From Heterotrichella gracilis (taxonomy: Eukaryota; Sar; Xanthophyceae; Tribonematales; Xanthonemataceae): a stretch of 59,758 nucleotides of DNA. Positions 3,353 through 51,455 of this stretch are shown here, one piece after another. Within the stretch, counting starts at the first letter, position 1. Each line of letters begins with the position of its first letter. The position numbers and the translations under genes were made by a program. A model generated the notes under the pieces. The model had not been told where the DNA came from and did no database searches. It saw nothing but the letters and a program-made list of their open reading frames with translations. Where the stretch lies: the NCBI GenBank assembly GCA_032358255.1, contig JAULBX010025431.1, positions 1 through 59,758 on the forward strand, read 5' to 3'.

Positions 3353-6229
3353 ATGGCCACAATGCATGCATACACATGCCTGAAGCCCTTCGCAAGTATC
3401 AGCAGACCCTCGTCCCAGGCCACCCCACGAGCCCTGAAACCAACCCACAGCAGCAGCATTCCCAGCAGAGCATTGGCCCCGAGGCCTATCAGAGCCCATC
3501 GGCCCCACCTCGTCACCTGTGCTGCCAGCCAAGACACCCCCACCACCTCCACCCCACCACCCACCCCCACCACCGCCAAGGCAGCCATCGAGGCAGGCCT
3601 GGCCGAGTTCAACGACAACAAGAACGTGGACAAGGCCCTGCAGCTGTTCCAGGCCGCCCTGGGGATGCGGTGTAGCAGGGATGAGTCTCGAGCCGCGCTG
3701 TACAACTCAGCGTGCTGCTATGCCAAGCTGAAGGAGTGGGACAAGGCAGCCAAGGCGGTGGTGTCTGCGGTGAACGACTATGACTTGAAGCTGGAGGTGG
3801 CGCTCAAGGTACAGGGTTTAGGGTTTAGGGTTTATCTTAAGGAGTGGGACGAGGCAGCCAAGGCGGTGGTATCGGCGGTGAATTACTATGACTTGAAGCT
3901 GGAGGTGGCGCTCAAGGTACAGTGGGTCGGTACCTCTGTCGCTTGCGCATGTTTCACTTATTATTTTATTTTCCACAGGACCCCGACTTGCGGGGTCTGC
4001 GGGACCGGCGCGAGTGGCTGGAGGCCCTGGGCAGCGCCAGGGGGGGCGTGACAGAGGCCCAGGTGGTGCAGCTGCGCAGCGAGGTCAAGGCACCGTTTCG
4101 CCTGGCGCGCGTCACCCTGTTTGGGGGCCTGGCGGTGGGCGCGGGCGCGGGGCTCATCATCATCACCACGCGCCTGGTGGGGGCGCTGCAAGGTGGGTGT
4201 GAAACTGGAAGAACATGTTAACTACAATGTGAACATATAAAAAATATGTGCATGTACACAATGTCGGAGTGCGAGTGTGGGGGGGCAGTGGAGTGCCTGC
4301 TGGCGGGTGGGCCGATGACAGGGTGGCCAGCTGGCGCCGGACATGCAGCATGCTGGCAGGTGGACAGTGCATGTGTCATGCATGGACCAAAATCTGTTGC
4401 CATGAGCCCGGTCAACCTGGCCGATTTGTTGCCATGACGAATTCCTGGTCATGGCAAGGGGTATATAGATAGGGAACGCATTTCCTATGTACCCCTTGGT
4501 CACGGACCAAAACTTGTTGCCAGAGCCCAATTACTCCACCCACCTCGACACGTGCAGGCGGCGAGGGCGCACCAGACGTCACGGAAACCCTTCAGAACTT
4601 TGGCATCAACGCGGCTGCCCTTGCTGTGCTGAGCTTCCTGCTGTACCGCGACTTTGCCTCGTCCAGCAAGGACAAGCGGGTGATCGCGCGGGAGGAGTCG
4701 CTGGGGCGCCTGCAGGTGGGCAGTGTGAGGACTCGTGAGGATTAAATGGCACCCCACCAGGTTGGCTCAATTTGTAATAGAGTCTGGTCTTGTTTGTAGC
4801 AAGTTTTGCAGTTGCGGATGTCACTCTGATTTCATTTATGGGATTTATACGGGTTGCATTTTAGGCTTATGGTAGTGTGAGAGTGCAGATTGCAAAAAAC
4901 AGTCCACTCTGAAAATATATACTCAGGCCAAATTCCGCTCCGTTACCCCCCTCCAGATTCAAACAGGCCCCGACCGGGTGGTCCCCCTGGCCAAATTCCG
5001 CGGCAGCACGCGCCCCGTCATCGTGGTGGGCAGCCGGGGGGTGGTGGGCCGCGCCCTCAAGGCCGCTGAACCATACCTGGCCCAGTTGCGGCTGCGGGGT
5101 GTGAGCGTGGTTGCGCTGTACACCAGCGAGGAGGACTACGTCACGCGCATAGCGGCGGTGAAGCGGGAGCTGCAGTGAGTGGCCAGGGGGGGTTGGGGTG
5201 TGGGGAGACTTGACTAGTAAATCATATTGATGAAAATAAAAGTAATAAACCATACTGACACAAGTAAATATTATAAATAATCATTATGGATGGTGTTTGT
5301 ATGGATGGATGAAAAGAAATTTATGCTGAACTGTTATTATTGTGTCGCGAAGCATCAGTGGTGTATTGTGCGAATTCCTGAACCATAACCTGCGCCATGA
5401 TTGCATGCTGTGGTCTGTACACCACCAAGGAATGTTTTCTCCAATTCATTCCAAGCGCATGCTGCTGTGCTTGGTGTGTTGCCGGCCCCTGGTTACATGA
5501 TGCCTGCTGGTTTGGCGCAGGGGTGACGATGGTGGCAAGGGGTTTGGTGAGAAAAAGGGGAGCAAGCCCCAGCAGGCGGCAGCGCTCACCAGCAAGGTAT
5601 GGATGGCTCTGTTGGTACATGTGACATGAATGATTATTCGCATTGGCCCATCCCGGCACATGGTGCAAGTTTACAATAAGCGGGTGGCCTTTTGAGGGAA
5701 GTGGCGTGTACCAGTGCTATATGCAGCAAGGGGGCGTTGTGGTTGGGGCACTGGGTGTTGTAGGGCATTGACGGCAGGGTTTTGTAAGCAGAGCTGGCCA
5801 GCAAGGCATGTGCATGTCATGTGACATGAACCATGCAGCATTGGATCACCCAGTGATAGAATGGGTTTGCATATGGCGAAGGACAATGACCACATACGCA
5901 TATGCTGCATTGCTGCCGGGCAGGCGGAGACCCTGTCAGAGTTTTGGCCCTAGGGTTTACAAGCACCGCGTCGTGGAGGCGCATTTCTTACCACCTGCAT
6001 GTGGTTTTTGCAGGACAAGAAGTTTGAGCTAACGCCCTTTGCCCCCGGGGAGTGGTTTGAGTGGATAGAGGAGCTGAAGAAGGAGGCGGGGGTCAAGGGG
6101 GAGAGCTGCTACGTGCAGATTCAGCTGGACGGGAGTGTAAGGTCCAGCGGCGTGGGGGCACCAAACTGGGAGAAATTTGTGTCTGATCTGCCTCCGCTGG
6201 ATGACGTCCGCTCCAAGTTCATGCAGTGA
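3353..6229 (+). CDS. LPA1: LOW PSII ACCUMULATION 1 homologue (TPR protein, chloroplast)
   Basis: Chloroplast membrane protein; in Arabidopsis LPA1 assists assembly of photosystem II. Six exons: 3353-3808, 3979-4192, 4558-4715, 4957-5174, 5521-5596 and 6014-6229, giving 445 aa (the Arabidopsis protein is about 450). ATG 3353 starts a Ser/Arg/Pro-rich, acid-poor stretch of about 55 residues typical of a chloroplast transit peptide. Residues ~70-150 form TPR-like helices (ALYNSACCYAKLKEWDKAAK). Two membrane helices follow at about 196-221 and 236-254, flanking the conserved GGEGAPD. The family C-terminus is clear: APGEWFEWIEEL, then LDGSVRSSGVGAPNW and LPPLDDVRSKF. The end of exon 1 is repeated inside intron 1, and the end of the last exon is repeated in the 3' flank (separate entries). 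A tiny extra exon near 5927 was considered but is not needed. Confidence 0.92.
3731..3918 (+). repeat. Exon-edge duplication: end of LPA1 exon 1 plus start of intron 1
   Basis: The last ~78 bases of exon 1 with the GT donor (3731-3811) recur at 3839-3918, 108 bases downstream, with only a few substitutions. The two copies are separated by three TTTAGGG-type units directly after the first donor. The second copy keeps the frame and a GT donor, so transcripts using the distal donor would encode an extra 36 residues without a stop. Confidence 0.85.
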
Positions 6230-6600
6230 GGGGGTGTGTGGCTGATGGGCTAGTGGTTTATGCACAGCATCGACAGCAGGGTTTTGGAGCTACTCGCTTG
6301 AGAGGAAGTGTGCATCTGGTGATGCGTATAGTGGTTGACTTGGATTTTGACGATGCTGTGATGGACAGCGGCGTGGGGGCACCAAACTGGGAGAAATTTG
6401 TGTCTGATATTTCGCCGCTGGATGATGTCCGCTCCAAGTTCATGCAGTGAAGGGGTGGGGCTGATGGGACAGTGGGTTGTGGCAGGGAATTGGCAGCAGG
6501 GCTTTGAAGCTACTTGCTTGAGAGGAAAGAAATGTGCAGCTGGTATTGGGTTTATCGGTTGGCTCAGATTTTGACGATGCTGTGTTAGACAGCGGAAGAT
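6143..6600 (+). repeat. Tandem duplication of LPA1 last-exon end and 3' flank
   Basis: The final 87 bases of the LPA1 coding region and about 130 bases of 3' flank are repeated with a 221-base period: stop codons lie at 6227 and 6448, and a third unit begins at about 6590 but ends after a few bases. The second copy still ends in an in-frame TGA. Point differences and small indels show the copy is not brand new. Confidence 0.85.
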
Positions 6601-7116: not shown

Positions 7117-10100
7117 ATGGTATCTACCTCTGGTAACACTTCCCTGCCCGGTGTGCAAACAGCAGCCGAGATGGCAGCCGATGGCACCCCAGACAGCCTG
7201 CCATCGGTGCTATCAAAGCTTGAAAAGTGGGGCAACTACGCCGCGTTTGGCAGACCTGTGGCACCATCAAAGTTCATCCCGATGAAAACACCGTTGAGCA
7301 ACGATATCCTTGAGAACTGGACCCTGTCTACCCCGCCAACGCATCGGCACACGGTCTCAGACTTGGTAAAGCTTCAGTCAGCGTTCGGACGTCGCGTGGG
7401 ATGTATCATTGACCTGTCAAATCATGATTGCCTGTACTCGGAAGATGTGCCTGAGGACGTCGAGTACCACCACATAGAGCTGGTTGCAAAGGTGCTGCCG
7501 CCTAGGGAGGCAATTGACCAGGTGCAGGCAGCCGCTGACGAGTTTTGGAGCCGGAAGCCAGGGGAATATATCGCCATCCATTGTGCTTACGGTACGTGGT
7601 TTTACCTAGCCACTTTGTAGTCGTTAGTGACAGGGTGCTTACGGCAGCGCTGTGTATTTGAGAGTTTGCCCAAATACCCACTTTATACCTATAGTATACT
7701 TGCGCTCTCCCTGTACTGGTGTTTGCTTCAACTTGCATGTATAGTCATATATGCATGCATTGTGCCCACATGTCAGACGCTGGCTATGTCCAGCCCTGAT
7801 ACCAGACGTTGACAATCAGCTCCGTGCAAGAGGTCTGTGAGTTAGAAACCCTGATGCTCAGTCAGTGCGACCCACTTGTGCTGCATCCAAAGCAGTGGTG
7901 CCAGCAGAATATTCTTTCAGGAACCAAATTACACACAAAGCTAGTGTGTCTGGTGCACACGACACTCTGGTTTCCTCATACAATGTGTGGTTCATGGCAA
8001 ACTGCTGTGAGAGCTGATTTTGGCTGCACCTCAGTAGCCAAAATCGAAAAATCAGCTCTTTTAAACCGTTTTCTCAACCGCATATGCCACTCATGCATAT
8101 TTATGCGGCACTGTGCCTGGTCTACAAGACTGCACACATTCTGCCAGATGCTCATTTTAGGACCAAGCCACACAGGACACCAGCTGCGCACACTTTGACA
8201 GTGGCGCGCACTCCAAAACCCTACCAAACCCTCTCAGAAACCCTAATCCTGCGCAGGCTTCAACCGCACCGGCTTTGTCCTCTGCTCCTACCTGGTGCAA
8301 GCCTGCCATCTCACTGTCCCCGAGGCACTCGCCGCCTTTGCCCGCGCCCGCCCACCCGGCATCAAGCACGACAAATTCATCGCCGAGCTGCACCAGCGCT
8401 ACAGCGAAAGCAGCGCGCCTCGGGCGCAACCCGGGGACCAGTCGGTGGAGCTGTACAGCGATTTCGAGGGGGTGGCGCACCAGCTGGAGGGCACCCGGCA
8501 TATACCGCACGGCGACACGTGGGGGGAGGCGGGGAAGCAGCGGCGGCCCAGCTTGGAGCGGCGCATGTCACGCAAGCAGACCTTTGACCTGGCCAGGTGT
8601 GGGCGCGCTGGAGTACCCTAAACCCTAAACAGCTGGAGGGTGGCGATGAGCTCATTCAGCACATGGTATCCCCCTGAGGTCCATGTAGGAGTCAGGCGCC
8701 GCCATACACCATAAACCCTTCCACTGTGGCAGTTGCTTACCCACCCCCCGGCACTTGACAGAAAGGCAGCAAACCCCCAGGTCAATTTCACGAGCACCCC
8801 TGCATCGTTGCTGGCAACACCCTAAGCCCTTGAAATCGCTTCCGGCGCAGGGCGCTCCAGGTTGACTTCATCAGCACTTCCCCGCCATGCGCCATTGCTG
8901 ATATGGATGCTGATGAGGCGGCTGGGTCCAGCCCGCCAGTGGCAATTACATCACAATATGGACGCACGATGTCAGGTGGGCATCTTGCATGGTGTGCACA
9001 TACCGTACGGATATGGGTGTTTAGCGAGTGGGGGAGGTTGGGATGGGAATGGTGCGGTGTGCAATTTGAGCTCCAGCCAACATTGTAGCCAGGGCAGCGT
9101 TTGCTAATATGGCGGCTGAATGGGCGAGTGGGTCAAGCCGATTTGTGGCCATCATGTCGCAGTAAGGGCGCACCATGTCAGGTGGGCATGCAGCGTAGTG
9201 GGTTACGGTGCAGGGTATGTGTTGATGGGGGAGGGCGGGGATGGAATGGACCAATGGACATGCATTCCACCGCACAAAAGCTAGTATAGCACCGGAGCTG
9301 GCTGCACTACATAACCCTGGAGCTGAACCCTGTGCACCCGCAGGCAGCCTGATGAGCAGCGTGGCGTACGCCGACTACTGCCTGCGTATCCACACATGTA
9401 GGAAACCCTAGAGCTGAACCCTAAATCCTCTATGCACCCGCAGGCAGCGTGATGAGCAGCGCAGCGTACGCCGACTACCGCCTGCACATCAACACGAGAA
9501 GGAAACCCTAGAGCTGAACCCTTTACCATGTGCACCCGCAGGCAGCGTGATGAGCAGCGCGGCGTGCCGACTACCGCGTGCGCATTAAAAGTAGAACCCT
9601 ACAGCTGACCCCTAAACCCTGTATGCACCCGCAGGCAACATGATGAGCAGCACAGCGTACGCAGACTACCGCTCACGCGTCGAAGGTTAGGAACCCTAGA
9701 GCTGAACCCTAAACCCTATATCTGAACCCTTAACCCTGTATGCACCCGCAGGCAACATGATGAGCAGCACAGCGTACGCCGACTACCGCGCGCGTGTCAA
9801 CAGCGCGGTGCAGGCCCGGGCCACCCAGGGGTGCGGGGCGGAGGAGGGGAGTGAACACGCTGAGGAGGGGAGTGACCCCACAGACCCTACCGAGGGTAGC
9901 GTGTCGGTGCGCGGCTCCTCCCCGACCTACTCGGAGCGGTCGGATGACTCGTGCGACGTGGCGCTGCGGGACAGGGATGGGCAGCTGAACCAGTCGTTCG
10001 GGTCGGATGCGACGGACCTGCTGAAGCAGATGAGGTGAGGGTGCAGGAGGGTGGGTAAGGTGTAGGGTTGAGTGTGCATGGAAATAGTGCAGAGGGCAGG

Positions 10101-12445: not shown

Positions 12446-12451
12446 AAGACC

Positions 12452-15942: not shown

Positions 15943-15949
15943 CTGCAAG

Positions 15950-16704: not shown

Positions 16705-16930
16705 GTGCCGCACCTGCTTGCACCAGCAGGACCTTGACCCCCAGCGGCTCCACCTCCATGAGCAGGGCCTCGGTGAGAAAGTGCAGCCCATCATTGGGTT
16801 TTAGGGTTTTCCGTTCAAGATCTAGGGTTTTCAACCCACCTGCTTGCACCAGCAGGACCTTGACCCCCAGCGGCTCCACCTGCATGCGCAGGGCTTCAGT
16901 CAGGGAGTGCGCGCGGCCTTGAGCTTTAGG
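16705..16930 (-). repeat. Two dispersed copies of the SDR exon 3 edge
   Basis: Two units (acceptor-side word ACCTGCTTGC at 16712 and 16838, period 126) match the 3' end of exon 3 of the short-chain dehydrogenase gene at 29059-29140, including the donor-side intron and the TTTAGGG-like spacer. They lie 12 kb from the gene in the same orientation. The second unit reaches GCGGCCTTGAG, deeper into the exon than the nearest copies beside the gene. Confidence 0.88.
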
Positions 16931-18169
16931 GTTTAGGTATTGAAAGTCTTTGGGTTTTTGAGATGCAGTGCTTCACCAACAGAGCCACATGCCATGCGAC
17001 TAGACTGTGCATCGGATAATTACACCCGGTCCGCTTGGATCAGATTCAGACATTGCCAAGCATTGCTCATTGTGGCAATATCACAAGCATTTTAACTACA
17101 CGTTTTGGAATACGTCCATTAAGACAATAAATACCCCCAACCATCGATCTGAGAATTGCCAAGAGATTTTGACATACGCGAGTCTCAGGCTATCTAGAAT
17201 AGCGGAATTGCTTTAAAGTTTAACACAGTCCACAGATGTGAGCACTGGGCCTTGGCGCTACATCTCACACTCAATCAATTCATCATGGTGGTTGGGCCAT
17301 TGAAATGGAATGACTAAAACCCACAAAAAGCCATGGCAAACAGCCCTGCCAGGGCCTCCACCTCAAAAACTGCAGAGCAGGATGGGCATGCTGGTGAATG
17401 ATCCATCCATGTCCCATGAGCCCAACCACACCCCAGAACAGAAACCCTAATTGCCCCACATTGTCAATTGCCTGCAGGTCCCTTTGCACCTCCCATGCGA
17501 CTCCCCATCCATGCCTGCCATCTCAGCCCCAAAGCCAACAGAATTTCGAACTACTACTGCTAACCAAGGCAATGTACAAAGCAAGGACTTTTAGCACACC
17601 CCTGCCAAACCCTTGGGGCACAACATCTGCATCCATGCATGTGGGCTCTGCGTTACGCTCCCGCACACCGAACTGCAACCACAGACCTGCCCTGGAATGA
17701 CCAGCTTTTTTGTCTTGGCAATCAGCTGGCCCGAAGCAGATTTGAAAAAAGTGTCCAGTCGCTCAATGCCTCAATGCGCTGTGGTGCGCTGATATCATGT
17801 CTCCCTTGCCTGGTTTTTATATCTTCCTGCTGCAGCAACATGCAGCTCTCCAATAGTGCCACCTGGCAGCTCTCCGTTGAGCCTGGCCGCCACGGTGCAT
17901 GGCTGCTGGTTACTGTCATTTGCATCCCTCCGCCTCAGGTTTGCGGCGTGCCAATAACCATCATCTTCCAGCAAGAGCCTCCTGTCCCCGTGGCGACAGC
18001 CGAGGCACACCTGCGCTGCAGATGCACACCAGTGCTCCTGGCGGGTGTCAAGCCGATTGGTGAACGTCCTGTCCCAGACGCCACGGCACTCCTTGATTGC
18101 CAGCGCTGTGCCCTTTGACAGTGAAGGCTGGCTTGGCTGTGTCAGTAACTGACAGGCTGGCATAGGAGC

Positions 18170-18272: not shown

Positions 18273-19331
18273 GGTCCAGCGCCAGCAGAACGCTTCAGTT
18301 ACTCACACAACCAAGACAGCATTCACTGTCATAATCATTATTTTAGTAAAGGGCACACCACAGCCAACCAAGAGTGGAGTGACAAATGTCAGACAGGGCA
18401 TTCATAAATTGGCTTGACACCAGCCGAGCACAACACCTGTCAGTCAACGCAGGCGTGGGTGGAGTCTCGTTGGATGTTAATTGGCAGTGTGCAGCATATA
18501 CAAATAGCATTTAAGGAGATAGCGCTACCACCAACGTGCACATTGCGTCACTCGTCCCAGCACTGCATACCTCTGCGGATCTCCGTAGCAGACATTCACT
18601 GTTATGCTCAGCTCCATGCTGGCTGTCCCATCCGCAAAATCCAGCCAGTCTCAGATTGCCCGATCCAAGAATGCGGCTCAGCTGCTCCAAAGGCACAGGA
18701 ACTGAGGAAGATCAAGCAAGATGTCACACACAGTAGCCCCTGCCAATGTGTGATGCCTACCTTAATCTTCATCACCACCTGCGCGTTTGGAGCAGCTGGG
18801 CGGCTTGTTGGGTGAAGCCGATGCACAGCCCCACACGTTGCAGGCTCATGCAGTAAAGCCTCACACGCTGCAGGTACACCTGCACAGTAGATTTAACCAC
18901 CAGTTAAGCATATTAACCTTCCTCTGGTGGCCTATCAACTCTGGAATGACTTTCCAAAGAGCGTGATCCTGGATCTGGCTTATTGCCTGGCCTGCATTCA
19001 ACTGCAATTTTCAAACTCTTTAATCCTCTTTAAACTTTTACTTTTGGCATGAAAAGTCTATTCGGTTAGGATTAATAGGGTTGGTGCATTTTGGGTTTAG
19101 GGCTTAGGGTTACTCCTTCAAGGTTTTAAATGTTGCCTATGCAGAGTTTTAGGCCTGCCCTTTGCAGGGCATTGGGGTTGTCTGGGTTTGGATTTGAGGC
19201 ATAGGAAAATACGCATGGATAGGTGCCACCCCTGCAAGCATCATTCCTGTGAAGTGATTATCCGCAGTCACAAAAGAATGCAAGAACAGGTCACCGTTAC
19301 CTGTGACGACCATGGGTGGCAAGAGGACAAT

Positions 19332-19500
19332 GACCCTGCCAGATTGTGGGGCAATCTCTGGTCAGGCCAGCCTTGGTGGCAATCTTCAGTGCAATCTTGG
19401 TGACGATCCAGCCGCCCAGACAGTCTTGCCGCCCAGATTGCACTCAAAATTGCCATCCAGACTGCCCACACCAGAGATTGCCCCACAATCTGTCAGGGTC
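19332..19500. repeat. Long imperfect palindrome, copy 2
   Basis: Arms 19332-19362 and 19470-19500 pair over about 31 bases (core CAGATTGTGGGGCAATCTCT) and pairing continues inwards over the GCCTTGGTGGCAATC region. It corresponds to the stretch after exon 2 in copy 1 (14505-14600), where only one arm is present. Confidence 0.85.
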
Positions 19501-20439
19501 ATTATCCGTGCCACCCCTCCTACCCACACCAGACTCGCCTCCATTGCCTGCTGCCACTAAGGAAGTCCCTGCACCGTGACCTGTACAACCGCCCCCCTGA
19601 CCATGCTCCTTGGCTACACCTGCTGCCTCCGCTGGCTGCTGTTGGGCTTAGGGTTTACTGTTTAGGGTTTAGGTTTGAGGTTTAGGGTTTAGGGCGAGGG
19701 TTGGATGTTCAACACCTGGAGTTGCCAGAAAGTCCCCACGAACGTAATATGTGAGGTCATCATCAATTGTGCCCAGCCTGAACCCCGCTGACACCAGGAG
19801 GGCATGGATCTTGACGATGCCGCTCAACTCCCGCTGGCTTGAGGCCCGCTGATGGATCCTGAGCCATGCGGTCTGCCATTGCTGGCTGAGGCCAAAGGCG
19901 GTGTTGCTGTGCAGTGCATGTGTGGCAAGCTCATGCACTTGCAGCCACTTGAGCCTGGGCTTTATATCATTGTCCAGGCACTGCAGGCACAATCAACCAG
20001 TGTATTAAACCATAATCCTTAAAACCCTATTCAGTTTATCTCACAATTGTTGTCCAGGCCCTGCAGGCACATACAACCAACGTGTACTGGAAGATTTACG
20101 AATACTGTGCGTCAGGATGTGGTATATGTGTAGTGCGCAGCAGCGCAACGCCTGAATGCGTTTATGATACAGGCAATTCCTGCATCACATAAATGGGCAG
20201 TACAGTAATGAGCAAAGCTAGCAACAGACGATACTCTCAAAATGGATGACATGCCATGACAATCAACCTGGCATCGTCTGAGCGCATTTCAGCACACTGC
20301 CTGCGTTTACCAACTGCTAGCGCACACAAGCTTGCCGACTTGTTGAGCGCACACCTCCAATAGAACAACCCTGTTACGCCCAGACACTCGCCCAACAAAG
20401 AAATGCTGTCCCATAAACTGCTGTGTTGGTGCTCAATAT

Positions 20440-22370
20440 ACAACTAATTTCCTAGAAAATAGCGCTACCACCAACGTGCACATTGCATCACTTGTCCCAG
20501 CACTGCATACCTTGTTCGGTTTTGCGTAGCAGACACCCACTGTCATGCTCAGCTCCATGCTTGCTGCCCCATCCCCAAATCCTATTGGGGCAGCCAGTCT
20601 CAGTCCCCTGCCACTGAATGTGATGTCTTGAATGAAGTTGATCACTCCCTGTGCCTCAAGGTCCATCAAGGTGCCTCATGGTGCCTTCAGACGCACGAGG
20701 TTATCAAATTCTCACAAAGGCATCACATACAGTGGCTGTGGGCTGAGCGAGGGACCACTCAGCTGCTCCAAAATCGAAGCGGTCTCACAGGCTCACACTC
20801 TGCAGGACCACACTGGTTCACGCTGCAGGTACACCTGCACAGTAGATATAACCAGTCGAGCACATGCTATAATAATCTTGCTCTGGTGTCCTAGTAATAT
20901 TTATTATTATATATCTTTCAAGATTAACAAATACATGAAAATATTAATCATTATTAATCACAGTTTTAACTATTATTATTCCTTTGGAATGAGTTTGGGA
21001 GTGTGCGCAACAAATCGTAGACCTGCTTTATTGCCCCCTCCTGCATCCAACTGCGATATTTTTACCCTTTAATATGAGGATATCCTATTCAACTGTATAC
21101 CTTTTGCATAGAAAGAGTCTATTTAATTAGGAACTATAGGCCCGTGTGGGCACGATTTGGGTGTAGGGCTTAGGGTATTCTCTCGGGCTTTTCCAGCGCA
21201 GGGTTTTAGGCCTGCCCCTACAGGATATTGGGGTTGTCTGGGTTTGAATTTGAGGCATAGGATAACACGCATGCACAGTGGCAAAAACTGCAAGTATCAG
21301 GAATGCGAATTGAGTGTGCTACAATTTAAAATTGGGAGATTAAGGGGTCACCGTCACCTCGACCCTTGGGGTGGCAAGGTGACAATGACCCTGACAGACT
21401 GTGGGAAAGGCTCTGGTCAGGTCAGCCTTGGTGGCAATCCTCAGTGCAATCTTGGTGGCAATTTTGCCGCCCATATTGCTCTGAGGATTGAACATCAATG
21501 CTGACTAGACCAGAGATTGTCCAACAACCTGTCAGGGGCATTGTCCTTGCCACCCGTACCCCACCCCATAATTGCCTCCATTGCCTGTTGCTGCTGGGGA
21601 AGCCCCTGCACCAGGACATGCACCCGGACCTGTACAACCGCCCGCCTGACCATGCTCCTTGGCTGCACTTGCCTCCTGTGCTGGCTGCTCCTGGGTTTAA
21701 TGTTTACGGTTTGAGGTTTAGGGTTTAGAGCTTAGGGTTTAGGGTGAGGGTTGGATGTTCCACACCTGGAGTTGCCAGTGTGGTCCCACGAACGTAGTAG
21801 AGGGCCGATCATTTGTGGCTGACCTGAACCCGGTTGACACCAGGAGGGCATGGGTGTCGTGGATGCCGCTCAACTCCCGCTAGCTTGCGGCCAGCTGATG
21901 GATCCTGAGCCATGCGGTCTGCCATTGGCGGCTGATGGTCAAGACAGTGTCGCTCTGCAGTATAAGTGTGGCGAGCTCATGCATTTGCAGCCACTTGAGC
22001 CTGGGCTCCACGTCATTCTCCAGGCACTGCAGACACATACAACCAGCGAGTTAAAACCGTAAACCCGAAACCCTAAACAGCTATTTTTGCATCATTGTCC
22101 AGGCCCTGCAAGCCCATACAACCAGCGTTTAGCCACACACACAGCTACTGGAAGATTTACGAATACTTTGCGCCAGGATGTGGTACATGTGTAATGAGCA
22201 GCAGCGCAACGCATGAATGCGTTTATGATACAGGCAATCCCTACGCAACACAAAATGGACTACAGGAATGAACACATCTAGCAACAACCAAGACAATACC
22301 AACTGCGGGCATGTCATGGAAAAATTTAATCTGGCATCACCTGAGCACATTTCAGTACACTGTTGGGACA
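20440..22370 (-). pseudogene. Broken copy 3 of the ARM-like gene unit
   Basis: Starts abruptly in exon-3-like sequence (20460-20640, GAASMELSMTVGVCYA readable), lacks the exon 4, exon 5 and 3' flank counterparts, and continues to exon-2-like sequence at 21775-22030 and a small ARM-exon-flank remnant near 22310. The exon 2 copy carries substitutions and stops (the YYVRGDF block is lost). An AT-rich TTATTATTA stretch near 20895-20990 and TTTAGGG-type repeats at 21712-21745 lie in the introns. The truncated left end suggests unequal exchange or deletion between tandem copies. Confidence 0.72.
21387..21539. repeat. Long imperfect palindrome, copy 3
   Basis: Counterpart of 19332-19500: outer arms 21387-21418 and 21508-21539 share the CCCTGACAG...CTGTCAGGG ends. 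The arms are less perfect than in copy 2, and the loop differs. Confidence 0.72.
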
Positions 22371-22498
22371 TTAATTGCTTGTCACTGTCATCCGCATCCC
22401 TCGGCCCTGGAAGATTCCACTGGCACTGCATCTGCGGCGCAAGCTTGCACATGCTGTAGCCACAGGAACAAGGTGCTCTCCCTTGTAAACGAGTGTGT

Positions 22499-22560
22499 TG
22501 GGACTCCAGAATATTCTGCAAACCAAGGCGCAAAGGATTGCGGATATTCTGGAGTCCCAA
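22499..22560. repeat. Perfect 16-base-arm hairpin
   Basis: Arms TTGGGACTCCAGAATA (22499-22514) and TATTCTGGAGTCCCAA (22545-22560) are exact complements around a 30-base loop. The arm resembles CTGGAGTCCCAGAACATTGA in exon 5 of copy 1 (near 13020), so this is an inverted duplication of former exon sequence. Confidence 0.88.
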
Positions 22561-23424
22561 ACAATTGTTTAGCAGGAAGAGCCTGTTGTACTCGCAGCGA
22601 CAACATGTGCACACCTGCACAGCAGATGCAGTTCCCATGCTTTTGGCTGGTGTCGAGCCGACTGATGAACGCTGCGTGTGCCATTGCACTCCACCTCTTG
22701 ATTACTAGTAGTGTTCCCTTTATAATGGCAGTGAGGGCTGACTTGGTTGTGTGTCAGTAACTGAAGCGTACTGCTGGCGCTGGAATCAAAGGCTGAAATA
22801 GAACCAGAAAGGGATTCTCTCCCCACGCAGGGATAACCATTGGCGGGTAAAGAAACCTCAGGTCCCACTTCCAGCCTTGGGTTCAAGCACCAGCAGAACG
22901 CATCAGTGACTGATACGACCACGTCAGTGTTCACCGCCAAAATACAGGGCACAGCTCTGGCAACCAAGGAGTGGAGGGCCATTGCACACATGCCGTTCAT
23001 CAACCGGCTCGACACCAGCCAGGCACAACACAGTCAGTTGATGGAGGCGTGGGCGGTGTCTGGTTGGATGTGGATTGGCAGTGTGCATCGTATACAAATA
23101 GTAATACAAAAATTAGCATGCAACCAACGTGCACATTGCATCACTTGTTCCAGCACTGCAGGTGACTACCTCCTGCGGTTTTCCGATGCAGACATCCACT
23201 GTCATGCCCAGCTCCAATGCTGGCTGCCCCAGTGGGTTTTTGGGATGGGGCAGCAAGCATGAAGATGATCATAGCAGAAAAGGTCTGCTACGCAAAACCA
23301 CACGAGGTAGCCACCAGTCACTTTGTGTGATATGATATTCTGTGTAAGATAATCTTGCCTGAACTTGATCACTTCCTGCGCCTTGCAGCAGCTGAGCCGC
23401 TTGCTGGGTGAAGCAGAAGCATCG

Positions 23425-32242: not shown

Positions 32243-33298
32243 ATGCCGGATTTTGCTAGCAGGGCGCCACCGCTTTTCCGCTGTGGCTCGTTGCGCTTGC
32301 TTGTGGCGTCATGTGTTGTTGCACTTGCCATGGTTGCAGCCGCACCCTTGGGGGAACCCCTAAGGGTTCACTTTGTGGGCTTCTGGGGAGGTGGCTCGAC
32401 GCCTTTCATGCAATGGCTGAACTACCTTTTCAGTGACGAGTACTCGTTTACGTTGTTGAGCGAGACCCCGGACGTTGTCAACGCGTCGACGGTTGACATT
32501 GTGTTTACAAATGGTGGTGTTTATAGACACAATGTGCACGCCCTGGAGCCGTTGCCAAGATTTGGAGACGATGTGATCAGGATTTTGTTCAGCGGGGAAT
32601 GGATTGAGGATGAGATGGACAGCCTCACAGAGAATTTCGACCTTTACCTGGGTTTTGAGTGGACGAACCACCCCAAGCACGTGCGCTTTCCTCTATGGCT
32701 GTGGTATTATGCCGATTTGGTACACACCAACATACTCGACAGCGTCTTCGGGTTCAGGTTGATTTCAGACAACGGGGCATCACTGATCGCACGGCATGGA
32801 GGGCACGAAAACATTCGAGGCGTGATTTACAACCATTTGACTTCTCGTGGCACACAAGTACACTGTCCTTCCAAATTTATGCATAATGTTCCAGGGCTCC
32901 CTGGCAGCGAATTACATGGAGAGGCAAAGAATAACATTACAGCCAAGTTGGCATTTGTTAGCAAATACCAATTCACTATTTGCACCGAAAACTCCAACCA
33001 CCATGGATATGTCACAGAAAAGCTTTTCCAGGCGTTTCATGCAGGCGCGATACCCATTTACTGGGGAAACCCCGACCCGGAGCCAGGCATATTAGATCCC
33101 GGTAGCATTTTGCTCTTTGATCCTAGGAATACTTCGAGTTTTGACGAAAAATTCGACAACATTCTTGCAAACAAAACTGCATTCCTCAACCAGCCAATTT
33201 TTCTGGATAGTGCGTACGACAACATTCAGGCCATGTTTGCAAAATTCACGGCGCAAGTTGGAGGGTTGTTACGGACCAGGTTTCCGCGTGGGCCCTAG
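32243..33298 (+). CDS. Glycosyltransferase family 10 (alpha-1,3-fucosyltransferase-like), intronless
   Basis: Predicted transfer of fucose from GDP-fucose to a glycan in the secretory pathway. A single 351-codon frame with no introns. Residues ~15-35 form a hydrophobic signal anchor (LLVASCVVALAMVAAA), giving the type II topology usual for Golgi transferases. The GT10 signature is at about 246-275: FTICTENSNHHGYVTEKL followed by FHAGAIPIYWGNP. The length matches bacterial and lower-eukaryote GT10 catalytic domains, shorter than animal enzymes with long stems. Asn-X-Ser/Thr sites are present (for example NAST, NITA). Every other well-supported gene in the window has two or more introns, so this gene may have come by horizontal transfer or retroposition; its A+T content is also higher. 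Its 3' end is duplicated in the flank. Confidence 0.9.
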   Translation: MPDFASRAPPLFRCGSLRLLVASCVVALAMVAAAPLGEPLRVHFVGFWGGGSTPFMQWLNYLFSDEYSFTLLSETPDVVNASTVDIVFTNGGVYRHNVHALEPLPRFGDDVIRILFSGEWIEDEMDSLTENFDLYLGFEWTNHPKHVRFPLWLWYYADLVHTNILDSVFGFRLISDNGASLIARHGGHENIRGVIYNHLTSRGTQVHCPSKFMHNVPGLPGSELHGEAKNNITAKLAFVSKYQFTICTENSNHHGYVTEKLFQAFHAGAIPIYWGNPDPEPGILDPGSILLFDPRNTSSFDEKFDNILANKTAFLNQPIFLDSAYDNIQAMFAKFTAQVGGLLRTRFPRGP

Positions 33299-33855
33299 TG
33301 ACTGTCGTCATGATGGTATTTGCAACCTAGGTGTAGCCATTAGTAGTGCGTGCATTGCAGTGTATATTTTTTTCGAATGAATGAATATATATTTGTATTT
33401 TGAATGGATAAAGGGATTGCAATCATAAATAAGATGAACATGTTGTCAATAACATACTTTTTGAAGTTTTGGCGACCGCCAGCCTGATAGTATACCGTAC
33501 TGTAACAGTGGGATAAACTGTGCGCATTATTCAATCGCAATTTCAAGGTCTGCCCATGACTGTTACGGACAAGGTTTCCGCGTGGGCCCTAGTGACTGTC
33601 GTCATGAGGTGTTTGCAACCTAGGTTTAGCTATTAGTAGTGCGTGCATTGCAGTGTAATTGTTTTTTCCGAATGGTTAAATATATGTTTGTAATGTGAAT
33701 GGGTAAAGGGATTGCAATCATGAATAAGATAAACTTGTTGTCGATAGCATACTTTTTGAAGTTTTGGCGACCGCCAGCCTGATAGTATAGTCTAGCTGCT
33801 GTAACAGTGGGATTTAAAAGTGTGCACATGGTTCAATCGCAAATGTAAAGTCTGA
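33268..33855 (+). repeat. Tandem duplication of the GT10 3' end and flank
   Basis: The last ~30 coding bases, the TAG stop and about 260 bases of 3' flank are repeated with a 294-base period (stops at 33296 and 33590). The copies differ by scattered substitutions and short indels. GTGTAAT, a TGTAA-type polyadenylation word, is present only in the second copy (near 33653); the first copy reads GTGTATA there. Confidence 0.92.
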
Positions 33856-40891: not shown

Positions 40892-43800
40892 CTACTTATT
40901 GCACTTGAGCGTGCCCTCAGTGCTTTCAAATGAGAGCAGTCCCGCCAGAGCACCTGCAGACACACATTGAAATGCGTCAGCATGCAGCACAACTCCTCCC
41001 CGCTGCTCTTGGCATGCCATTGGCTGAGACCGGGTCTGTCCCGAGCCACATCAATGCAGAAACACCACCTAGAGATCATTCCACCTGGGGGATAAATGAT
41101 ACCTGGGGGCACCTTCGAACCCCAAACCCATGGGTAACAACCTGCAAAGCCTGCATGCACCCACCTTGCAACCTCAATGCATTTACACATGGGAAACAAA
41201 CAGATAGAACCCCTCAACAGTCTCACCCACCTGCAAACCCTGCGTTGTAGTCCAGCGCCACCTCGTTTTGCTGGTAGTTGTCACGGCTGTCAGTGTACCC
41301 ATCCTGCCCATTGGGCCCCCCGACCAGGCCGCCATACAGGATGTTGGGGTTGGGGTCAGCTGAGTTGAAGGCATCCCAGCTGCATGGCGTGGCGAAGGGA
41401 GCGGGGCAGGATGCCCCCCGGTGGTGGGCAAACTGGGGAGGGTTTTGGCCAAACCCTACCAAGAAGCTGCGGCCGGTGTCTCCCAGGGCATAGCCCAGCT
41501 GCAGCAGGGGTTAGGATTTTAGGTTTTAGGATTCAGGGTTGCATGCCCCCCCGGGGTCTGAACCGCTACCGCTGAGGAGTTGCCTATGATTTACCGCCGG
41601 ACTGCTTTTCGGCAGTAAATTATGGACAACTCCTCAGCTCACTTCATTCCAAGGCTGTGCATTGCTGTGTTATGGAAAATGCAGCAGGTGGCTCCAGAGC
41701 AGGAGAATGCTCATGGTGAGAATATGGCATCTCAATATCACGACCCACCTGTTGCTTAGCCCAGCAGGTGTACTTGATGGTCTGGCCGTCCGGTTGGTAT
41801 GCGGCATAATGCAGCGCCAGGAACGCGGTGTTGGCTGCATTGCGCAGGGATCCCCAGTCGCGCACATAGGCCAGGCCCTGCAGAGAAACAGGGATGGGTT
41901 TGCACATGTAATGATGCATTTTGGGATGTTGTGGAGCCTTCTTGGTTGACTGGCAGTAGCTTTCGTTTTGGGGTTTTGTGGGATAATCGTTGTTGACTGG
42001 CACTGACAATATATTTCAGCATAATAAAGGGTTGCAACATGATATATTGCAGACACATAATACATAAAATGTGCGCGTAATAAGAATCGTTAGATAGATG
42101 ATCCATCTTTATGAGATGGACACCTTTCCAATTGCTCGCACATGGTGCATGTAGTTAGCATGGCACGGGCAGCAATTAAGTAAACCCTGCCCCCTCCCCT
42201 GCATGATCCCCACCCTCCCCTTTCCCATGCCCACCTAGCACACCCACCTTCAAGATTCAGGGTTTAACTTAGGGTTTTTGCCTACCTTGGGGGTGTAATA
42301 CACCGGCGAGGTCCCCTGGATCCAGTTCTCCAGCATGCCCCCCACATTGCGCATGTACACGGTGTCCCTTTTATTCTGCCCCTCCGCATACACCTCAGCC
42401 AGCAGGGACTGCGCCATCCAGTACATGTTGTCCCAGTCAGAAACCACGTTGTTAGGGTCCGGCATGCGGTTGGCGATGGTTTCCGCATCCGACAGGTACG
42501 CGCGGTTGGCGGTGGCGTAGTACAGCCACGCCCCCGCCCACATGACGTCATCCAGGTAGGATGAGGAGCGATAGGGGACTGACTCCGCGTTGAAGCTGTC
42601 GGAATATTGGCCAGGGTACTTGACCGCCAAGCTGCGCACACACAATCAAATCGTCAGTAAAAGGAAATGGTGGATGATTAATTGGTGACAGAAGCCCCCG
42701 TTGGAAGTTATATTATGGAGCTGTCGGAGTATGGCCAGGGTATTTGACAGCCATGCTGCGCCCACCACACCAAAACGTCAGTAAAAGAAAATGTTGGACG
42801 TTTTCGGTGGCAGAAGCCTCCACCAGCACACACAATGAGACACACACAAATCAGATAAGGAGGTAAACGAGAAAACGAGGATATAATCTGTTGCAAGCCC
42901 TAAAATAATTAGTGGACATACTATGCCTACTGAGTTTAAATCATTTGAACAGTAATCATTGGATTCCTACATATTACAAATCTCACTCAACTGCGTAGGT
43001 TGCAGCTGGGGTTTGCAGCTGCACAGGTGTGACACATAGAACCTCATCCCTGAGCCCCGAGAAGTTGCGATCCCACCTGTACAGCTGCACTGAGTGGTTC
43101 AGCGCCTTGGCAGCAAAGGCGGGGTCAATCTTGGCAAACACGCGCGTGGCGGCTGCCAGTGCTGCCGCAGCCTGTGCTGTGGAGTCACTCCCGGGGACCT
43201 TGGGGGTGTTGACGTAGGTGGTGCGGGGGGGGGCTGCGGGGGGAGATGAGGACAATTGGAGGGCTTGTTTGAGGGATTAATGGCCGTGACTTGGTGGTAC
43301 AGGTGGTGCGAGAGGGATGTCCACATTTTAGAAGTTGCATTGCAACACAAAATAATACCGGATGGGTTATTATCAAACACTACCCCCCCGTGTCAGGGCG
43401 CAGCCAGCAAAATCCTGGGCAGGGATCAAGCCCTAGAGATCAAATAGCACGACGCACACAAAAACAGCCAACTCCCTCCATATCGTGGCGCCACCCACCC
43501 ACCTGTTGAGTTCTCTGGCCGGTTCCACTGGGCATGGTCGATCTTGGCATCCCCAACCTGCACCACCACAGGTAGACCGGATCAGGTAAAACGCCTTTGT
43601 TTGACCACCTTGTGCAAACCCTCTGTGTGTGCAGGCAGCCGTGGGCGGAGCGTGCCGTCCGCCCCGCACAGCCATGGGGGGACTGCTTGGGTGTGAGTGC
43701 TACATGCATCCAGCAGGCACCCGGTTTGTGTCAGGTGACTGTTGTGGTTTCAGATCAAGGAACGCCAGGACTGCCTAGCTACATGCATTCCAACTCTGTC

Positions 43801-47454: not shown

Positions 47455-50400
47455 ATGCATCCCCACCGGCTGCATCACCTCCTCCTCCCCTTGGCCTGCC
47501 TCCTATCCATCGCCCCCCTTGGAGCCACCGCACAGTCAGACGCCGATGCACCACAGCGCCTGTGTAGCCTCTGGGACTATGAACCTCTCCCTCCGAGGCC
47601 CAATCCCCAGGCGGACCAATCCCCTGGCGGGCTCAATCCCCACCATTCGGGCAACGCGCGGCGCCTAACCTCCCTACCGCAGCACACCACGCACCACCAT
47701 CAGCAACCCCCCACCCGTCGTGCACCCGGCGCCACCACCTCCAAGCCCCCACAAACAACAGTACAAGCGCACCTCTCAACCCAGCAAAACCCTAGGGTCA
47801 CATCATGGCCTGCCGACAGCACAAGGGTGGGCAACGCGCGATCTCAGAAGTCGCGCCATTTGCTGCAGCAGTATGGGCGGCGGGCCCCTGGCAAGGCCTA
47901 TGTGGCGATCTGCGCCATTTGCAAGGATACTGAGCTGGAGGATCTGACCGAGTGGGTGGAGTACCACCTCAGCATAGGTAATCCTAAACCTAAACCCTAA
48001 ATCCTAAGTCCATTTCTAAGGATACTGAGCTGGACGTCCTGACCGAGTGGGTGGAGTACCACCTCAGCATAGGTAATCCTATACCCAAATTTTGCTGGGT
48101 GCATGTAACTGAGGGGCGTGAGGAGGACATCAGCTGCATGGCATGGAGCATCTATGGATGTACCCTGCATGTGGGTCCTGTATATGATCCAACATGGAAG
48201 GTTGGGTGTGCATGTGCACGCATGGGTGTGCATGGAAATAATGATGTACTGATGTGCATGTGGCATTTTACCCTTGGACTACTGGCGCACATGGGTGCAT
48301 ATGCGTCAAGAGGGTATGCACGTGCAACGGAGTAAAAGCTAAGCAGACTTTGCCACCTTTGCGGCTGGGATGGGACGCACATGCAGAGCGCAACAAGCAC
48401 CAATGCATCGCAATCCGCACGCGCTAGCGCACGGGCATGGGCAGGAGCGCACAGCAGGGTGCCTGGTATATGATCCTTACTAATTGCCACATGACAATCA
48501 CTCAATTTGGGACGTTTTTTACACGCCTGCCGCAGGCGTTGGCAAGGTCTACATCTACGACCACAACTCCACCAGGCTGCTGCTGCCGGCGGTGCAGAGG
48601 TGGGTGTAGGGTTTGGGTTAGGCTGTAGGGTTTAGTGTAGGATCAGGGTGCACATCTACGACCACAACTCCACCAGGCTGCTGCTGCCGGCGGTGCAGAG
48701 GTGGGTGTAGGGTTTGGGTTAGGCTGTAGGGTTTAGTGTAGGATCAGGGTGCACATCTACGACCACAACTCCACCAGGCTGCTGCTGCCGGCGGTGCAGA
48801 GGTGGGTGTAGGGTTTGGGTTAGGGTGTAGGGTTTAGGTTAGGGTTTGGGTGCATATCTACGACCACAACTCCACCAGGCTGCTGCTGCCGGCGGTGCAG
48901 AGGTGGGTGTAGGGTTTGTGTTAGGGTTTGGGTGCACATCTACGACCACAACTCTACCAGGCTCCTGCTGCCGGCGGTGCAGAGGTGGGTGTAGGGTTTG
49001 TTTTAGAGTAAACGTTTTGAGTGCACAGGTGGGCGTAGGGTTTGGGTTAGTATAAAGGGTTTGGGTGCACAGGTGTGCGTAGGGATTGGGTCAGGGTGTA
49101 GGGTTTGGGTTAGGGTAAACGTTTTGAGTGCACAGGTGGGCGTAGGGTTTGGGTTAGGATAAAGGGTCTGGGTACACAGGTGTGGGGATTGGATCAGGGT
49201 GTAGGGTTATGGTTATGGCTTGGGTGCACAGGTGGGTATAGGGGTGCGCAAGCGCCTCAAGGTGCCTCATCTGCACATGCACGCCTGTCCTGCAAGGCCC
49301 ACAGTGCATGGTTGTATTTCAGTGCCCAGAGGTATCTACATGTGCCTTCAACCAGGGGTGAGGAGCCCGGGGAGGGCTTTGGCATTGCCGTCCATTCTAT
49401 ATTTGTTTTTGTGTACCTGTGAGCCCGCGTACTCTGCGCACATTTTTACTCTCATTCGTGTTTTTTTTGGGGAGTTTCCAATAAAACAATAAAAAAATTA
49501 CAATTCAGACTCCTTTTCTGCCCAGGTGGGTGCACATCGTGGACTACTAACTTTGACACCTGTGGACCATGCGCAGTACCCATTGCATGCATGGCCGGCA
49601 TCGTGATGACCACCACCCTCTGCTTCTTGTACAACTACAAAGCTATGTGCATGCAATTCTTCAACCATGGTAGATTTCCGTATTCACAAAAAAGCCCCTT
49701 TCTGCCCAGGTGGGTGCACAGCTCCATCGTGGACTACTACCTCTTCGACACCTTCACGCACCGCTCGGGCTCCGCCAAGGTGTGGGTGTACGACGAGTGC
49801 CTGCGCCGCTTTGCGCACCGCCACCAGTTCATTGCGTTCATCGACGACGACGAGTTCGTCGCCTTTCGGGGCGCGACGCCGCGCGACCTGCCGCGCTTCC
49901 TGCGCAGGTGGGGCTGGGTTTTGGGTCTAGGGTTTTAGGGTATAGGGTTTAGGGTTTGGGTTTAGGGTTTGGGTACACCTCCGATGCAGGAATATGCTGC
50001 CCCTACACCCTGCGCCCTGCTGCACGTCAGGCTGATGGCAAACCCTGGCATATTACACCCCTTGTTGTTTGAATTGCATACGGGCAGGCCCCGCACATCT
50101 CTACTGTGGGGATGTAGAATCTAGTCAGCATGGTGCCTATGGTTTTTAAAGTCTTTCATTGCTCCTGTAATCTATATCTTATATGGTACGAAGCCACGCC
50201 CCTTATCCCCGCCCACGTGCGCGGCAAAGCCACGGCGGGTGTTCAATGTTTTTTTACTAGAATTGGTTGTCGTTATCATATATTTGCATTATTATTAGTT
50301 TGTTATTGTTAAACTGGTTGTAATCTTGCGTGCCAGGGTTGGCCTCCTGTATGGGCTGTCAACCAGATCTTGTAATTTTGTATTGATTCAAATTATGTTG

Positions 50401-51455
50401 GTCTTGACAAGCACATTATAGGTTTTTAAGGAATATCAATTTTATCCTTAACCTTATTCCTGCGCAGCAACAAGTACGATGCAGTGGGCGGGCTAGCGCT
50501 CAACTCCATCATCATGGGCAGCTCAGGGCACCTGCGGCGGCCCCAAGGGGGTGTGCTCAACAACTACCGCAGTTGCCCCCCGCCCGAGCACTGCATGAAC
50601 GAATTCATCAAGACCATCGCGCACACCAAGCACGTGGTCGCTGCGGTGAACGGGCGCCACTTCAAGTACCGGGGGGGACACGCGGCGTACACGGAGCGCA
50701 TGGTTCGGGTGTATGGCACGCAGACCGACACCATACAGGTGCGTTCTGTAGGGTTTGGGGTCTGGGAAGTAGGGTGACTGTGCCCCACGTGTCATTTGCC
50801 CTTGACCTGAAGTGCTCTTGGGCAAAGGGTATGGCATTGGTGCATCCCCTGGTGGGTTTCCTTGGTGGCCGGGATAGGACATTTGATACTGCGGGAAGGG
50901 CTTTTGGCGCTGGTGCATTCGCTGGTGCATTTCCTTGGTTGTTGGGATGAGGACACTCCAGCACTCACAGGGAGACGCCGTACGCATGGAGCTAGTTCGT
51001 ATGAAATGCAATGTGAGCTGGTAGTTCACATCCTTTACAAGTGCCGTGTAGCGCCCTGTAATACTATGTGCCCAAGTACCAGTTTGCGCACAAACTCAGC
51101 TTGGGGTCTGTGGCCAGGCGCAGGGGGGTGCGTCGATGAGGGATGCCCCATGCATTTACCGTTGGCCTATGGGCTTGTTAACCTGGGGAGTGGGCCCAAG
51201 ATTCGCTCTGGCTTTGCCCCGTCTGAAAACTTCCGCTCTTTCCCTCCCCTGCAGGTGTCGCGCATCGCCCTGTACCACTACGCCCTCAAGTCCCGGGAGG
51301 ACTTTGCGCTCAAGCTCAGCCTAGGGTCGGTAGCCAGGCGCAGTGTGGGGATCAACGAGGGGTGGGCCTATTTCAACCGGGTGGAGCGGGAAGTCATGCG
51401 CAACTGCACCGATTTGTTGGGAGCGCTCAGGCCCAGCGCTTTGCCCAATCACTGA
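47455..51455 (+). CDS. Glycosyltransferase family 92 (DUF23) protein
   Basis: Predicted secretory-pathway glycosyltransferase. Five exons: 47455-47977, 48536-48599, 49710-49907, 50468-50738 and 51255-51455, giving 418 aa. ATG 47455 starts a signal sequence (HHLLLPLACLLSIAPLGATA), then a long Pro/Gln/His-rich stem to about residue 145. The GT92 core follows: YVAICAICKDTELEDLTEWV, VGKVYIYDHNS, RHQFIAFIDDDEF with the metal-binding acidic cluster at 241-244, GGLALNSIIMGSSGHLRRP and GGVLNNYRSC. The end, YHYALKSREDFALK, also fits the family. Plant GT92 members act on pectic galactan; the acceptor here is unknown. Exon 1 end, exon 2, exon 3 start and exon 5 interior all have extra partial copies in the introns, the densest case in the window. 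Confidence 0.9.
47915..48085 (+). repeat. Duplicated end of GT92 exon 1
   Basis: The last ~56 bases of exon 1 with its donor (to 47984) recur with the matching donor position at 48072, 95 bases downstream. The two copies are joined by CCTAAACCTAAACCCTAAATCC. The copy keeps the reading frame of the segment and the GTAATCCTA donor context. Confidence 0.92.
48536..49215 (+). repeat. Five copies of GT92 exon 2 and a trailing telomere-like array
   Basis: Exon 2 (64 bases) loses its first ~15 bases but is otherwise repeated: ATCTACGACC occurs at 48553, 48654, 48755, 48855 and 48938 (periods 101, 101, 100, 83). Units 2-4 keep the exon part identical, ending CAGAG|GTGGGTG. Between units lie GTAGGGTTTGGGTTAGG-type sequences. 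From about 49000 to 49215 the intron part alone continues as degenerate units (GCACAGGTGGGCGTAGGGTTTGGG), so the array has decayed into a telomere-like minisatellite. Confidence 0.95.
49505..49750 (+). repeat. Degenerate copy of the start of GT92 exon 3
   Basis: The acceptor and first ~40 bases of exon 3 (from 49710) resemble 49525-49562: both read TTTCTGCCCAG|GTGGGTGCAC and then CATCGTGGACTACTA. The upstream copy has lost several bases and runs into a stop. Confidence 0.85.
51078..51145 (+). repeat. Degenerate copy of part of GT92 exon 5
   Basis: Inside intron 4, 51080-51142 matches exon 5 interior 51296-51362: TTTGCGCACAAACTCAGCTTGGGG against TTTGCGCTCAAGCTCAGCCTAGGG, then GTNGCCAGGCGCAG in both. 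Offset about 215 bases. Scattered changes show it is older than the exon 2 copies. Confidence 0.8.

Follow-up and report, generated by a model that had tools for sequence, protein, structure and literature searches.

Tandem duplications at exon edges, in part with telomere-type spacers, in the genome of the alga Heterotrichella gracilis

Introduction

Tandem genomic duplication over an exon–intron boundary can turn former exon sequence into intron and supply the splice sites, as described for the potato RdRp gene (PMC4974935). Here we report tandem copies of segments spanning exon edges in the alga Heterotrichella gracilis. They were first noticed in a contig of 59,758 nt (GenBank JAULBX010025431.1, assembly GCA_032358255.1; this whole stretch is in the following called the window), for which the original prediction, made from the sequence alone, proposed a genome-wide process biased toward exon edges. 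The duplication and its exon-edge bias are established in the sampled genome, by wrong-side comparisons that hold with the window left out as well, a scan of short segments and a shift test.

The potato system is alike in that a boundary-crossing tandem duplication puts exon sequence into an intron. The cases described in that report are single genes and concern intron gain, whereas here 66 of 311 predicted introns carry copies and spacers are often telomeric (PMC4974935). Repair-mediated duplication from proximal DNA in the human genome resembles our arrays in its local copies, which measure tens to hundreds of bp, may come with filler and in some cases contain exons and splice sites (PMC2671141). 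As reported there, exons are rare among the donors (of 824, four were partly exon and intron and four more contained exons), and pairs less than 50 bp apart were set aside as tandem duplications; here, duplication is concentrated at exon ends (PMC2671141).

Two further systems involve telomere biology. In mammals, telomere repeats are inserted at double-strand breaks, sometimes with a target-site duplication, a minority outcome according to the counts given for rodents and primates (6 of 130 and 4 of 25 loci, respectively; PMC2246262). Telomere repeats at internal sites and occasional target duplication are shared with our case, in which the telomere filler accompanies duplications of about 60–130 bp concentrated at exon ends (PMC2246262). 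CST–Pol alpha-primase, the telomere fill-in complex, makes tandem duplications at 3′-overhang breaks in mammalian cells (PMC8355091). The likeness lies in the overhang-sized tandem duplications and in machinery common to telomere C-strand fill-in; the available account of that system describes neither telomeric filler nor an exon-edge bias, and its role here is one that we infer (PMC8355091). Plants, finally, carry short telomere motifs in genes, called telo boxes, which have been proposed to arise where telomerase acts on free 3′ ends (PMC3022908). According to that study they favor 5′ UTRs (untranslated regions) in Arabidopsis and rice, without overall intron enrichment (150.7 vs 155.2 and 72 vs 81.1 per Mb), and are more common in the first two Arabidopsis introns; the motifs described below lie at intron ends (PMC3022908).

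The statement in the original prediction that no named system fits was therefore too strong, since the reports on potato, human and mammalian loci each cover a part (PMC4974935, PMC2671141, PMC2246262). Among the literature matches listed, which were searched by titles and abstract beginnings with subscription journals mostly outside the search, neither telomere repeats at splice sites nor mass exon-edge duplication is described. The component processes are known; their combination of frequency, edge bias and telomere filler appears to be new.

Results

Duplications are concentrated at exon edges

The analysed set consisted of the window, which is an entire contig (C293) of a genome of 68,512,230 bp in 903 contigs, and 24 other stretches of 10 kb, 299,758 bp in total. 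These 24 stretches lie at round positions on 13 contigs, and no position was picked by telomere content; 11 of the 13 contigs (C2, C3, C8–C11, C13, C15, C16, C24 and C46) were chosen from a telomere-pattern list, so that the sample is not strictly random. Exons are the predictions of our own gene finder, a generalised hidden Markov model in our own C and Python code, trained on the 25 stretches. It delivered 54 genes with 311 introns, median lengths of 150 for internal exons and 304 for introns, and the splice signals CAG/GTRRG (donor) and pyrimidine-TGCAG/G (acceptor). One gene scoring below 10 was left out of gene counts, leaving 53 with a score of at least 10. Other evidence supports the models: homologues of the SDR protein align to all three SDR exons, homologues of LPA1 align over the spliced junction, and Pfam finds Glyco_hydro_9 across its full profile in GH9, as well as domains of the DSPc, aminotransferase and CCCH types. 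The top protein matches with a named source come from green algae, with [Myrmecia] bisecta (59%, the best) and Trebouxia sp. C0006 (45%) for LPA1 and Auxenochlorella (47%) for SDR, all Trebouxiophyceae.

Self-alignment by BLAST yielded 101 raw matches, which clustered to 65 arrays in 18 of the 25 stretches once 14 low-complexity matches and those with a spacing below 40 had been dropped; because the pair at 47915–48089 of the window was missed, array counts are lower bounds. A predicted exon edge lay within the left copy of 32 of the 65 arrays, against a mean of 15.6 at random, and none of 1000 random placements reached this value. The right copy held an edge in 21 arrays against a mean of 15.6, a number that 69 of the 1000 placements attained. 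When genes were predicted anew on sequence in which the other copies had been masked, the counts were 32 against 14.3 (left) and 23 against 13.6 (right). Exon-only arrays were likewise above random (12 by the left and 11 by the right copy against 5.8), intron-only arrays numbered 12 and 22 against 18.3, and intergenic arrays fell below random (8 and 9 against 23.8).

Using exonic 60-mers, we found exon 3′ ends copied within 500 nt downstream in 39 of 261 cases and exon 5′ ends within 500 nt upstream in 38 of 263. On the wrong side, this held for 9 of 249 3′ ends and 6 of 261 5′ ends (Fisher p 1.3e-5 and 3.4e-7), while mid-exon copies amounted to 3/118 and mismatched flanks to 22/6912. Leaving out the window gave 34/222 and 33/220, against 8/211 and 4/218 on the wrong side.

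We further classed 18,251 segments of 60 nt by the predicted annotation, skipping mostly telomeric or low-complexity ones, and searched each for a local copy. This is the comparison of exon edges with other DNA that had been suggested along with the original prediction: 17.1% of edge-straddling segments had a local copy, compared with 4.3% in exon interiors and 1.1% in unannotated DNA. The values were 13.0% and 10.0% for exon ends at the donor and acceptor, 7.1% for intron interiors, which include partner copies, and 0 of 16,993 for mismatched controls. At a stricter score (40), the straddling segments (7.9%) still exceeded intron interiors (2.0%), exon interiors (0.8%) and unannotated DNA (0.5%). 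When positions were shifted within genes, 252 straddling hits stood against 125 ± 14, with a maximum of 178 in 2000 shifts, and 116 against 50 ± 9 at the stricter score. That edges still stand out at the stricter score speaks against the excess being purely a matter of detection, with neutral pairs decaying faster.

At least one copy was present in 66 of the 311 introns (up to about a fifth) and in 26 of the 53 genes. Stop-side copies followed 3 of 39 predicted stops and start-side copies preceded none of 19 starts, numbers too small to compare; the window adds stop-side copies in LPA1 and GT10. Introners, dispersed families that mass-produce intron sequence, are alike in that output. They had been set aside in the original prediction, rightly so, as only two similar intron pairs between different stretches occur among the 311 introns. 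Furthermore, the copies are not independent of the host exon but are copies of the neighboring one, with the mismatched flanks at the 22/6912 given above.

Copy structure and a proposed mechanism

Edge copies were tabulated in 77 rows, which are not 77 independent events: 11 introns hold both a donor-side and an acceptor-side row, and some pairs were counted twice, viewed from both sides. The 39 donor-side rows comprise, by median, 74 nt of exon and 11 nt of intron, with 28 of them reaching no further than 24 nt into the intron; for the 38 acceptor-side rows the medians are 55 nt of exon and 23 nt of intron. At least 2 nt of intron are included in 35 of 39 donor-side matches, which hence run over the GT, and in 31 of 38 acceptor-side matches. 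Edge copies diverge by 4–30%. In seven of the nine donor-side copies with 92–96% identity, the match ends 2–18 nt beyond the predicted donor, and the remaining two belong to multi-copy arrays; the seven ends are thus true breakpoints rather than results of decay.

Units that are largely exonic, with a short intronic tail, agree with a process that strikes exons and whose products persist only if the copy can escape the reading frame. With middling confidence, we propose that the repair of staggered breaks duplicates exonic DNA, sometimes with telomerase-type filler, and that the survivors splice the copy out or carry it after the stop codon. The recurring mutation would duplicate mostly exonic DNA in place, typically about 60–130 bp, and would leave a non-homologous spacer of commonly 20–150 bp between the copies, with telomere repeats in roughly a third. 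It would begin with two nicks, or a long-overhang break, in or near an exon; paired-nick duplications have reportedly been found in plants by Schiml in 2016. One 3′ end would sometimes be lengthened by telomerase or capture telomeric DNA, both overhangs would be filled in, as by CST–Pol alpha-primase at telomeres and 3′-overhang breaks, and end joining would produce copy–filler–copy, the layout expected of staggered-break fill-in. A 3′ overhang would suit telomerase too, uniting both signatures in one event. Local direct duplication with junction filler, as in fill-in tandem duplication, is present here.

Duplications inside exons would usually break the frame and be lost. Those whose copied stretch has a donor, an acceptor or a stop codon would survive, as splicing then removes the extra copy or it comes to lie in the 3′ UTR; introns would thereby be lengthened at their ends by relics of exon edges and by telomere filler. 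Arrays of several copies would result from repeated events and unequal exchange between copies.

Telomere repeats at intron ends and in spacers

The genome contains TTTAGGG repeats (834 exact 21-mers) and encodes a telomerase RNA-binding domain. Exact TTTAGGG-type heptamers, present in 168 of the 311 introns, reach 28–34 per kb within 40 nt of a donor, with both strands about alike, and 21–32 per kb within 40 nt of an acceptor, mostly as CCCTAAA, compared with 7.6 per kb mid-intron and 0.5 per kb in exons. In the 255 introns that lie outside the window, the density falls from 25.9 per kb in the outermost 40 nt to 7.9 at distances of at least 100 nt. Independently of any annotation, CAGGTG followed by GGGTTTAGGG within 30 nt has 1000 matches in the whole genome and the reverse order 420, and CCCTAAACCC followed by TGCAGG has 1107 and the reverse order 511, overlapping tract positions being counted separately; backwards-read control patterns gave 0–4 matches per strand.

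Introns touching a duplicate carry a heptamer within 60 nt of an end more often (63 of 99) than the others (67 of 212; p 1.6e-7). Among 54 spaced pairs, heptamers occur only in the spacer in 13, in the spacer and an equal outer flank in 8, only in the outer flank in 6, and in neither in 27. Of spacers of at least 15 nt, 12 of 30 on the donor side and 10 of 31 on the acceptor side contain an exact heptamer, and in some young spacers nearly the whole length between the copies is telomeric (LPA1; L024 5110–5245). The telomere-type sequence originally claimed between units is thus present in about a third of the spaced cases and lacking, as an exact heptamer, in the majority.

Alternatively, intron ends could have had these tracts beforehand, and the tracts could cause the duplication, either through fork stalling with template switching or through unequal exchange between tracts, with the tract inside the unit. 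The copy-free introns with marked ends (67 of 212, with 150 and 173 heptamers at the two ends against about 11 each after shuffling) would be expected, the tract does recur within the units of four arrays (48536–49018 and 28608–29132 in the window, L012 and L025), and in eight of the 54 pairs heptamers occur outside as well as in the spacer. Yet spacer-only pairs exceed outer-only pairs by 13 to 6, and the match in seven of nine donor-side copies of 92–96% identity stops no more than 18 nt past the predicted donor. We consider pre-existing tracts rather unlikely as the cause.

Another explanation is that telomere repeats and duplicate splice sites are retained as splicing aids, the C-rich strand acting as a pyrimidine tract or providing a branch site, G-runs working as enhancers and the copies offering spare sites. 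C-strand repeats indeed prevail 20–40 nt before acceptors (27.4 vs 4.7 per kb), and 35 of 39 donor-side matches span the GT. In the 202 introns without heptamers, CTGAC (24 vs 5.3 expected) and C-rich words are enriched at −45 to −15 from the acceptor, likely the branch-point and pyrimidine-tract signature of the alga; CTAAA itself, however, reaches only 9 vs 3.8. The strands are about equally common after donors, and a third of the copies have frameshifts or stops. Retention as a splicing aid is an unlikely explanation.

Coding state of the copies

A frameshifting indel is present in 25 of the 77 copies and an in-register stop in 9. In 19 lesioned copies outside predicted exons, differences by codon position are 52/53/97, near the expectation for an unconstrained copy beside a constrained exon, and many copies have decayed as non-coding sequence. 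It has to be weighed whether many pairs are simply exon duplications or alternative exons that are translated. Such a reading can draw on 29 of the 77 copies, which are open and predicted as exons, with differences mostly at third positions (29/17/115), and on five rows that read straight through in frame without a stop and belong to three loci, namely LPA1, the acceptor-side pair of SDR and a pair in L032. In the other 72 rows, straight read-through is blocked by a frame shift or stop, which fits extra copies turning intronic. The idea that duplicate splice sites make the copy intronic accordingly agrees with most pairs, and less clearly with the open LPA1 and SDR acceptor-side pairs. Homologues argue against translation as well: the peptide of the LPA1 segment is present once, ungapped, in the 20 aligned of 32 found, and SDR homologues use identical residues (about 157–186) for the exon and its extra copies. 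That many of the pairs are translated seems, on balance, quite improbable.

Arrays in the window

In the window, Tandem Repeats Finder, a repeat search and self-alignment recovered arrays in all six genes originally named (LPA1, the phosphatase gene, SDR, GH9, a gene labelled GT92, and GT10). The range of 83–294 bp per unit with 1–4 extra copies holds, and donor-side, acceptor-side and stop-side examples were all found. The clearest case is LPA1:

3728–3922, + strand: LPA1 donor-side array, 108-bp spacing
3728–3814, + strand: copy 1, exon 3′ end with donor (gtacag, 3809–3814)
3815–3835, + strand: telomere filler GGTTTAGGGTTTAGGGTTTAT between the copies
3836–3922, + strand: extra copy with its own donor, 93% identical
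6136–6595, + strand: stop-codon-side tandem copy, 221-bp spacing, 82%

Here, 87 bp of exon end and donor are followed by GGTTTAGGGTTTAGGGTTTAT, the 87 bp again and ordinary intron, with no telomere heptamer within 60 nt downstream of the extra copy. The frame is open from copy 1 via the filler into copy 2 (108 bp, 36 codons), so that translation of the extra copy is possible. A 36-residue insertion in the protein is conceivable, and use of the first donor would excise the copy; LPA1 is therefore no proof of splicing. The stop-side unit would comprise the C-terminal coding end, the TGA (6227–6229 and 6448–6450) and DNA downstream, with frame and TGA positions taken from the sequence and the C-terminus predicted.

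The remaining arrays are as follows:

8895–9249, + strand: phosphatase gene, old donor-side pair (69–72%), 206 spacing, predicted exon 8851–8975
9313–9803, + strand: phosphatase gene, acceptor-side array of five copies, spacing about 100
28414–28475, − strand: SDR, acceptor-side copy of the last exon (27931–28268), 76%, approximate bounds
28608–29132, − strand: SDR, donor-side array with four copies of an exon 3′ end (exon 29059–29340), spacing about 133
29744–29953, − strand: SDR, acceptor-side pair, 95%, spacing 114, exon 29560–29806
33267–33854, + strand: GT10, stop-side tandem copy, 294-bp spacing, 87%
42591–42821, − strand: GH9, acceptor-side pair, 81–83%, spacing 125, predicted exon 42286–42631
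47915–48089, + strand: gene called GT92, pair with 95-bp spacing and a GT donor-like site at the end
48536–49018, + strand: gene called GT92, donor-side array of exon 48536–48599 and four more copies
49520–49561, + strand: gene called GT92, putative short acceptor-side copy of the start of exon 49710–49907, by sequence reading
51031–51364, + strand: gene called GT92, pair, spacing 214
51031–51145, + strand: gene called GT92, decayed copy (70%) of the start of exon 51255–51452

The phosphatase gene carries a DSPc domain (Pfam); its acceptor-side unit consists of AACCCTA-like sequence, a gcag acceptor and the exon 5′ end, and the last predicted exon starts at 9752. The SDR donor-side array includes AACCCTAAACCC-type sequence. 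At the SDR acceptor-side pair the reading frame is open across both copies, and translation of the extra copy may be conceivable. Two tandem copies of the SDR exon-edge unit also lie at 16711–16982 (− strand), 12 kb from the SDR gene and 71–78% identical to the reference copy; six SDR homologues (E up to 1) match there in residues about 156–195 only, and we read this locus as a dispersed fossil of an SDR exon edge. The GT10 unit includes the TAG (33296–33298) closing the GT10 open frame, an exon uncalled by the gene finder and taken from the original prediction and the open frame with its GT10 domains.

Pfam did not confirm the family label of the gene called GT92. Its pair at 47915–48089 has CCTAAACCCTAAATCCTAA between the copies, and the exon edge there was uncalled by the gene finder. 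The array at 48536–49018 has spacings of 101 and then 82 over five copies, with TAGGGTTT-type spacers. A degenerate TTTAGGG tract of 59 bp (49916–49974) begins about 9 nt into the intron after exon 49710–49907, with no exon copy listed adjoining it. Elsewhere in the window, a stretch of about 2 kb is apparently present two to three times in tandem (18489–24796; spacings about 2046–2061 and 2660–2870; repeat families D4, D7 and D12–D17), and the contig ends in 32 consecutive G (59727–59758), probably an assembly or sequencing end effect.

Discussion

Several observations weigh against staggered-break repair with a reading-frame filter as set out above. Under a strict filter the excess of exon-only arrays is not predicted, and some of these arrays may be protein repeats; the mechanism leaves the targeting of exons over introns unexplained, and the filter is incomplete. 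Among spacers of at least 15 nt, an exact heptamer is absent from 18 of 30 on the donor side and from 21 of 31 on the acceptor side, and one non-telomeric spacer (L027) had no second match when searched genome-wide. Heptamers also mark the ends of copy-free introns. The polarity expected of telomerase, with the G-strand near the left copy (6, against 4 near the right) and the C-strand near the right (7, against 5 near the left), is not significant. The 29 open copies look protein-constrained and may be coding, and the pairs at LPA1, SDR and L032 are open in frame. At published telomere insertions, moreover, the duplicated target is reportedly much shorter.

That the pattern arose by chance in a gene-dense genome, from errors of prediction or in the assembly is very improbable, for although the exons are our own predictions and right-copy edge counts are just modestly above random, the mismatched controls without a hit, the shift tests, the annotation-free order asymmetry across the whole genome and the 4–30% divergence of edge copies, unlike that of assembly duplicates, largely contradict such an origin.

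A farther-reaching version of the staggered-break reading is possible though doubtful: telomerase followed by CST–Pol alpha fill-in at staggered exon breaks could be a main source of intron sequence in this alga; tens of percent of its introns would have had telomere repeats and fossil edges written into their ends, and introns would at times be created outright when the copy supplies both splice sites.

Where most intron sequence comes from is not known, and a parent sequence is seldom recognisable in recent gains (PMC4974935). In our sample, a parent, namely the neighboring exon end, is still visible for up to about a fifth of the predicted introns (66 of 311). If true genome-wide, this would be a very large natural experiment on intron growth within one genome, and would inform on how a splice site is chosen when two are offered and on telomere enzymes acting at ordinary breaks. 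The data suggest a continuing remodelling of introns in this alga by a mutation process connected with break repair.

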